Translations under genes and position numbers: made by a program | DNA from: Synaphobranchus kaupii | Lineage: Eukaryota > Chordata > Actinopteri > Anguilliformes > Synaphobranchidae | NCBI GenBank assembly: GCA_029718625.1 | Contig: CM056376.1 | Location: 28,419,424-28,483,423 of the forward strand | DNA: 64,000 nt | Direction: 5' to 3' | Notes under the pieces: generated by a model | Seen by the model: the letters and a program-made list of their open reading frames with translations, nothing else | The model's database searches: none | What the model was told of the DNA's origin: nothing | Part shown: piece after piece, positions 19,701 through 22,700 of the stretch | Position numbering within the stretch: position 1 is the first letter of the stretch | How the letters are laid out: every line of letters starts with the position of its first letter

Positions 19701-22700
19701 GGAGATTTAAATCATGGAAATTTAACAAGGGCCAATCAGAAAAGCGAAACTGACGTGAAGCACTAACGGCGTGTACACTGGGGTACCATGGGAACCATTT
19801 AAAAACCTACAGGAGAAGCAAACAGTTTCAGCTTCTGCGGGAAGTAAATAAAGAGAAGTATGACATTCAACAAAAAAATTTGCTTATGTCACAAATGTCT
19901 ATACAAAGTCATTTACTTTACGGAAGCCTTTTGGCCCCAAGTCTTTGTACTTTCTACACTACTTAGTGCAGTAAAAGATGCCAAAGCAAACGCTCGCTGT
20001 AATTCACCTCTAACATGTCCGCTTTAGAATTACTAAGCCTCACTAGTTAAACGCATACCTACACCACCACCAACGACTGTGCCAGTGTTACGTTTGTTCT
20101 TTCAAGAAAGCCTCAGTGAGGACACTTCAGAACTAAGCGGACAGAAAAATGTCTTCCTACTCCTCATCATTATGCCAGATATAGGCAGTCACGGTCCTCG
20201 AGGGCCGAGAACTGCTGGTTTTCCACCCTCCCTGTACCTGGGAGTCAGGTGTACCTGGGAAGACAGCCTGGCCAACCAGTGGCACTAATGGTTCAGTTAA
20301 TTACCTGGGACAAAAGAACCAGGGCTGGATTTGGATTTGAAGGCCAGATTTGAGTAATCAAGCCAAGTGGCTAAGACTGGGTTGCATTGATGAAGCTCAC
20401 TTCCTGGTCTTGTTGCATTGATGGAGCTCACTTCCTGGTCTTGTTGCATTGAGGGAGCTCACTTCCTGGTCTTGTTGCATTGATGGAGCTCACTTCCTGG
20501 TCTTGTTGCATTGATGGAGCTCACTTCCTGGTCTTGTTGCATTGATGAAGCTCACTTCCTGGTCTTGTTGAGAGCGTTGCTCTCTGGCGCCACTGCGGTT
20601 GGCTCCAGTATAGATCTTTCAGCCACCCGTTTCAGTGCAAGTCAATGGTACCAATGCAGTAAAAATACTAATTTTTTCCCCAGAAGAACGAGTAGTCGCA
20701 ATAGGTCTAATGTTACCCCATGCGCCGATTTGTTATGTTATTGTTACTGTGTCGATTTGACACTATTTTTATATTTTGTGGACCAATCCTGGAAAGTTTG
20801 CGGGACTTCCTAGTCACTGCACGTCACAAACATCTCATGCACTTGGTAGATGACCCGGACCTAGCCCAGACTGCGAGCGTACCCTTGAGCAACATACTTC
20901 AGTAAATATCCAGCTGTATAATGCAACTGTACGTTTTAGAATGTAAGCTGTGGAAGACGGTTTGGATAAGTCTGCTAAATGCCTGAAATGTAAATGTAAC
21001 ACTTCATTCCTGCCTTACTCCCTCTCCCACACTCAATGTGTGAGACCCCACTGCCACACTCACTGTGTACAGAGACCCCACTGCCACACTCACTGTGTAC
21101 AGAGACCCCACTGCCACACTCACTGTGTACAGAGACCCCACTCCCACACTCACTGTGTACAGAGACCCCACTGCCACACTCACTGTGTAGAGACCCGACT
21201 CCCACACTCACTGTGTACAGAGACCCCACTGCCACACTCACTGTGTACAGAGACCCCACTGCCACACTCACTGTGTACAGAGACCCCACTGCCACACTCA
21301 CTGTGTACAGAGACCCCACTCCCACACTCACTGTGTACAGAGACCCCACTGCCACACTCACTGTGTACAGAGACCCCACTGCCACACTCACTGTGTACAG
21401 AGATCCCACTGCCACACTCACTGTGTACAGAGACCCCACTGCCACACTCACTGTGTACAGAGACCCCACTGCCACACTCACTGTGTACAGAGACCCCACT
21501 GCCACACTCACTGTGTACAGAGACCCCACTGCCACACTCACTGTGTACAGAGACCCCACTGCCACACTCACTGTGTACAGAGACCCCACTGCCACACTCA
21601 CTGTGTACAGAGACCCCACTGCCACACTCACTGTGTACAGAGACCCCACTGCCACACTCACTGTGTACAGAGACCCCACTGCCACACTCACTGTGTACAG
21701 AGACCCTACTCCCACACTCACTGTTGACGGCGATCCACTCGTTGAGGTCCTCGCCCTCCGGCAGCATGACGGCCTGCCGCAGATTCCCGCTGCCCAGCGT
21801 CGCTTCCGCGTGCTTCAGCAGCTCATACTGATGTGAGCCCTCCGGAATGTTTTTCTTTGGCTTGAACGTTTTTGACGAGCGGCTGCCACTGAGCGAATGG
21901 GAGAGAGAAAAGTACCAGACGGTGTAGAAATAAGAGGTGCGTGTGTGTGTTTTTTTTTTGTTTCAGGGGAAGAGAGACCAAACGGGAAAGATTTAGTATG
22001 AGCATGAAGATATGAGATGGGTCCCATTCCTTTGAAATCAACATGACTTGAAAGGCTAAGGTTTATCTTGAAAGCTGGGGAGCCTTGTTTCTATTGTCAC
22101 TGGAACAGTTCAGGTTACAGATGAAACCAACCACTTTAAAAGCTTTGAAGGCACAGCCAATGGGTTATCTACCCAGCTGTGCCATTTAATTGCATAAAAC
22201 GGAAATGCATAATATTAAATGAGGAAACAAAAAAGGTTATTTTAAGATACACTACCGTTCAAAAGTTTGGAATCGCTGAGACATTTTTATTTTTTGAAAA
22301 ATAAAAGGCAGTGTAGTATAATGGTTAAGGAACTGGACTTGTAACCGAAAGGTTGCAGGTTCGATTCCCAGGTTGGACACTGCCGTTGTACCCTTGAGCA
22401 AGGTACTTAACCTGACTTGCTTCAGTATATATCCAGCTGTATGAATGGATAAATGTAATAAGAAGTTGCGTAAGTCGCTCTGGATAAGAGCGTCTGCTAA
22501 ATTCCTGTAATGTAATGTAATTTAAAAAATTGATACTTTTATTCACCAAGGTAGCATTAAATCACGCCATATTTATTGAACTAACGACAATCGCTTTCAT
22601 TGGCTTTGTCGTATAGTCAGTAATGCATATGAATAAGTTTTTAAATGACAGCTTTTTAGTCCAGTGACAATTGTTATAAGGAAAGGTTTAGAATCACTGA

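Follow-up and report, generated by a model that had tools for sequence, protein, structure and literature searches.

A minisatellite carrying copies of the exon 2 splice donor at the start of mob1a intron 2 in the eel Synaphobranchus kaupii

The mob1a gene and the array at its exon 2 donor

The window (64,000 nucleotides of the genome of S. kaupii, Kaup's arrowtooth eel, a deep-sea species) includes mob1a, PITPNM2 and southpaw. The exons of southpaw correspond to the S. kaupii protein SKAU_G00010270, with no difference except at spliced edges. An ORF at 40352-41071 (minus strand) presumably encodes a Tc1-like transposase. The mob1a gene is complete and lies on the minus strand (Table 1). Its six exons are free of reading problems and, spliced in silico, encode a protein of 216 aa that aligns with human MOB1A end to end. 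Intron 2 measures 2584 nt and its 5' end is occupied by a 30-bp minisatellite. The edge of this array (21724) practically coincides with that of exon 2 (21722): the array starts at the exon 2 donor.

The window contains 23 perfect ACAGTGAGT sites, every one of them on the minus strand within the mob1a array; in 100 dinucleotide shuffles the mean was 0.79 and the maximum 4. One of these 23 identical ACA|GTGAGT is the real exon 2 donor and the other 22 are decoys, spaced by 30 nt throughout except for one 28-nt step. All 23 GTGAGT of intron 2 fall within the array. The final partial unit carries ACATTGAGT in place of the donor copy. The units are homogeneous (exact consensus after 17 of 24 unit starts), which suggests a recent spread. 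They have few bases in common with the end of exon 2 (3 matches over 4 positions). Elsewhere in the gene, a 19-bp repeat with CAGGTGGGG in its unit (18935-19017, minus strand) lies about 26 nt past the exon 3 donor, and another tandem repeat (17374-17487, minus strand) is located just upstream of the exon 5 acceptor.

Homologous proteins (best 120 of 541 matches) give an indication of the age of the exon 2 donor. Past the exon 2 end, 60 of these 120 carry S, followed by E or K in 57 cases. Of these 60, 55 go on with TVDFF or AVDFF and 5 show another continuation. Since S and then SE or SK is the read-through expected from A|GTRAG, the donor is old. It is thus the usual donor, and the array is the new part.

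Table 1 Features of the window and donor-carrying arrays elsewhere on the same contig (C1)
Feature	Position	Strand	Basis
mob1a exon 1, coding part	24771..24784	-	
mob1a exon 2, 167 nt	21722..21888	-	
True exon 2 donor ACA|GTGAGT, junction 21722|21721	21716..21724	-	
30-bp minisatellite, 705 bp, 23.7 copies, 5' end of mob1a intron 2	21020..21724	-	Tandem Repeats Finder
Decoy donors 1-17, Mob1a frame kept	21206..21694	-	
28-bp unit, frame-breaking	21187..21214	-	
Decoy donors 18-22, Mob1a frame lost, premature stops predicted	21058..21186	-	
Second minisatellite of mob1a intron 2, 31 bp, GTGAGC six times	20381..20570	-	
mob1a exon 3	19044..19137	-	
mob1a exon 4	18075..18208	-	
mob1a exon 5	17198..17361	-	
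mob1a exon 6, coding part, stop codon next	16787..16861	-	
Second donor-anchored array, PITPNM2, 41-bp unit, four CAG|GTGAGT	56113..56279	-	Tandem Repeats Finder
L025, array starts at TBC exon end	C1 4.925 Mb		Pfam RabGAP-TBC, E 9.3e-10
L029, array starts at laminin-EGF exon end	C1 6.548 Mb		Pfam EGF_laminin, E 1.4e-07
L021, array adjoins probable exon	C1 0.184 Mb		no Pfam match
L052, array adjoins probable exon	C1 13.574 Mb		no Pfam match, no PDB match

Predicted outcomes of decoy use

Use of decoys 1-17 (n=17) would lengthen exon 2 by 30-510 nt with the frame kept. The corresponding proteins, spliced in silico, measure 216+10n aa (226-386 aa), retain the normal C-terminus and carry predicted inserts of 10n residues directly after IAVN. 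Decoys 18-22 (n=5) would lengthen the exon by 538-658 nt with loss of the frame, and the resulting stops are found in silico 295-511 nt upstream of the last exon junction, so that these transcripts are predicted targets of nonsense-mediated decay (NMD). Long stop-free stretches span the array in five of the six frames, and an open Mob1a frame therefore argues little for function. The peptides SECGS and CGSGV are absent from the homologous proteins sharing exon 2 (best 120 of 541 matches).

A preliminary description of this DNA had placed the start of the 30-bp repeat on the exon 2 boundary and counted 22 perfect decoys, 17 of them in frame; the array edge, the unit list and splicing in silico bear this out. 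The frame-breaking 28-bp unit that it reported also exists, at 21214-21187 in the present register rather than at 21181-21208. The proposed insertion of a repeated decapeptide holds as far as the 10n in-frame codons are concerned, with the correction that the first repeat and one later repeat differ in their letters.

Arrays at other exon ends

In the PITPNM2 array the real donor lies at 56264|56263 and its copies follow positions 56223, 56182 and 56141. The unit is identical to the exon end at 15 of 20 bases and, since it repeats this exon end, the array copies the exon-intron boundary itself. At mob1a a duplication spanning the boundary is harder to see directly, because the unit there barely shares the exon end. 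In silico, all three PITPNM2 decoys lead to stops; with the real donor the frame likewise runs into a stop, farther along at a frame slip near 54355. Apparent frame slips of the PITPNM2 coding exons are located at 54420-54303 and at about 49540 (minus strand), one of them at a C run, and may be assembly errors or real changes. In each unit of the 56113-56279 array, GTGAGT is immediately preceded by ACAG and a run rich in pyrimidines. The unit thus looks like an acceptor fused to a donor, which we take to resemble recursive splice sites. The array is adjoined by a 37-bp minisatellite (55938-56097, minus strand) whose units, CTCATAACCTTACAG, look like a branch point with an acceptor. Another tandem repeat (63503-63850, minus strand) lies near the acceptor side of a PITPNM2 exon.

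Across the window, 2 of 14 tested donors lie inside arrays (mean 0.72 under shifts, P 0.15) and 3 of 14 within 60 nt of arrays (P 0.07). Neither value is significant, and several of the positions used may be off by a few bases. Not among the 14 are the donor of mob1a exon 1 and that of a PITPNM2 exon near 63377, which was not found. Three or more donor motifs are present in 2 of the 22 Tandem Repeats Finder rows for the window and in none of the 32 rows for 200 kb sampled from contig C1, both small numbers. Genome-wide, triples of AGGTRAGT number at least 3520+3061 (6581) versus at least 2061+2482 (4543) for the reversed pattern, all of them lower bounds that include overlapping matches within arrays and do not count arrays. 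Single AGGTRAGT occur 8 times in 200 kb and the reverse 19 times.

Twelve donor-carrying arrays were found among the matches listed (C1 up to 16.5 Mb) and the flanks of ten were read. Two adjoin exons supported by Pfam (a TBC and a laminin-EGF exon) and two adjoin probable exons, of which that of L052 is, we presume, collagen V/XI-like. No exon was seen in the flanks of five (L046, L047, L051, L054, L055), and in the remaining one (L053) the array runs on. Donor-carrying arrays at exon ends recur in the eel genome. Real donors could represent, by estimate, roughly a third of AGGTRAGT octamers, so that random seeding could explain the share of arrays anchored at exons.

Origin of the array and donor choice

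The mob1a array belongs to a known type. The preliminary description knew of no described case, wrongly, since the human ABCA7 intron 18 VNTR and the IFI6 minisatellite precede it. The repeat unit of IFI6 (6-16, G1P3) is 12 bp long, a multiple of three without stop in the host frame. The mob1a unit shares these features, its length being a multiple of three and the host frame stop-free for decoys 1-17; it is in frame as in IFI6, and near ABCA7 in unit size and copy number. Zhuo et al. in 2007 reportedly described introns arising from tandem arrays. In human segmental duplications, tandem repeats located at exon-intron boundaries change splice-site choice (PMC2812944). Both concern new introns or exon lengthening, whereas in mob1a an old intron would have gained copies of its own donor. 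Two downstream repeat units of IFI6 act as donors (PMC4526556), a use reportedly described by Turri et al. in 1995. In both genes a minisatellite gives one exon several donors, which in IFI6 results in different protein isoforms. However, the IFI6 unit is shorter, and downstream donor use is reported there while the mob1a decoys are known from sequence alone.

The ABCA7 VNTR is the closer in architecture. It consists of 25-bp units, 23.7 of them in the human reference, opens with the GT of the exon 18 donor and is linked to disease risk (PMC5954066). The canonical donor is dominant, the transcript retaining one unit representing 2 +/- 1% independently of VNTR length, while exon 19 skipping increases and expression drops as the VNTR lengthens (PMC5954066). 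Like the mob1a array, it lies directly at the exon, is intronic and carries a donor in each unit. Its unit is out of frame, however, and retention of one copy leads to a stop, whereas the mob1a unit is in frame. Length polymorphism and splicing effects were measured for ABCA7; the mob1a array is represented by one assembly. Among the matches listed in literature searches there was no donor-anchored array besides ABCA7, IFI6 and the related cases cited above, and MOB1A appeared in none of the 10 papers listed, out of 546, for any two of MOB1A, minisatellite and VNTR.

We consider it likely that the mob1a array is an intronic, donor-anchored VNTR that arose through a tandem duplication where exon 2 meets intron 2, and that the proximal donor dominates, +10-aa isoforms being made in traces at most. 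An ordinary vertebrate-type exon 2 donor and the ~27 nt with which intron 2 begins would have been duplicated in tandem and then expanded, the donor in every unit being the result of duplicating a donor-containing segment. Selection on the exon may have fixed the exon-side edge of the array, leaving the intronic side free to grow. The exon-proximal donor would be chosen almost always: it is expected to be transcribed first and to close an exon of 167 nt, each decoy adding 30 nt up to a putative exon of 825 nt for the last one. If decoy 1 or 2 were used now and then, the protein would gain 10 or 20 aa behind residue 60, and decoys 18-22, if used, would give NMD targets. This reading is supported by the 23 identical donors at the exon edge, the intact gene, the age of the donor, the homogeneous units, the like anatomy of ABCA7 and the arrays of the same type at the PITPNM2, TBC and laminin-EGF exons. 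Counting against it, all 23 nine-mers are equal and no local score favours the proximal donor, so that the choice must depend on position and context. Dominance of the proximal site, one of two possibilities raised in the preliminary description, fits ABCA7, on which this expectation mainly rests. The ABCA7 and IFI6 precedents suggest that only the first one or two decoys are in use. The array is probably near-neutral, and some length-dependent splicing noise is possible.

Alternatively, several of the 17 in-frame decoys could be used at useful levels, yielding a functional ladder of Mob1a proteins of 226-386 aa with repeated decapeptide inserts. A unit of ten codons without stop, the 17 frame-keeping decoys and the use of two downstream units as donors in IFI6 (PMC4526556) are in its favour. 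We nevertheless regard such a ladder as unlikely: the insert would follow residue 60 of a highly conserved protein, inside the region covered by solved human MOB1A chains, the two insert peptides searched for are absent from the homologous proteins (best 120 of 541 matches), an open frame comes cheaply here, and decoy use in ABCA7 is about 2% (PMC5954066). The length of the array could also alter mob1a output without decoy use, for example through exon 3 skipping or lower mRNA, as next-exon skipping and reduced expression accompany VNTR length in ABCA7. The strong-effect ABCA7 alleles, however, reach thousands of bases against 705 bp here (PMC5954066), and an effect of this kind seems quite improbable. 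Finally, the unit count or the 28-bp unit might be a consensus error, and the apparent frame slips of PITPNM2 near 54355 and 49540 indicate that indel errors may exist in this assembly. This is very unlikely, the units differing through scattered substitutions, of which the 28-bp unit has two as well, and the mob1a exons reading cleanly.

Shielding of the decoys by RNA folding was also considered. Donor accessibility was modelled for spans of 40, 80, 150 and 300, at 4, 20 and 37 C, and with 400 shuffled units. At 37 C the ratio of the proximal donor to the median decoy was 39-fold, 416-fold, 3.7-fold and 5.0-fold at these spans, with ranks of 1, 1, 1 and 6 for the proximal donor; at 4 and 20 C its rank lay between 4th and 11th for the long spans of 150 and 300. 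The advantage is not significant, its ratio being reached by 37 of 400 shuffled units at span 80 and 89 of 400 at span 150. Decoys as closed as the real ones were obtained with 41 (span 80) and 37 (span 150) of the 400, and 159 of 400 shuffled units fold as stably as the real one. The effect, strong for the short spans, is weak for the long ones and attained by shuffles, and this explanation was dropped.

How one of several identical donors is chosen is a classic question of splicing, and the mob1a locus is a natural gene with 23 identical donors at 30-nt steps and 17 in-frame outcomes distinguishable by size. A survey of such arrays in repeat-rich genomes seems worthwhile because of their recurrence at PITPNM2, TBC and laminin-EGF exons and of the disease-risk link of ABCA7 (PMC5954066). 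It is conceivable, though doubtful, that donor-anchored minisatellites form a recurrent genome-wide class in the eel, that the birth of repeats preferentially captures exon-intron boundaries, and that many genes thereby acquire ladders of identical donors, some of them, mob1a first, giving a graded set of in-frame isoforms that changes with the length of the repeat.

As a separate observation, two of 20 sampled 10-kb stretches (L012 at C1 68.0 Mb and L014 at C1 82.0 Mb) consist almost entirely of tandem repeat, with coverages of 0.998 and 0.995.
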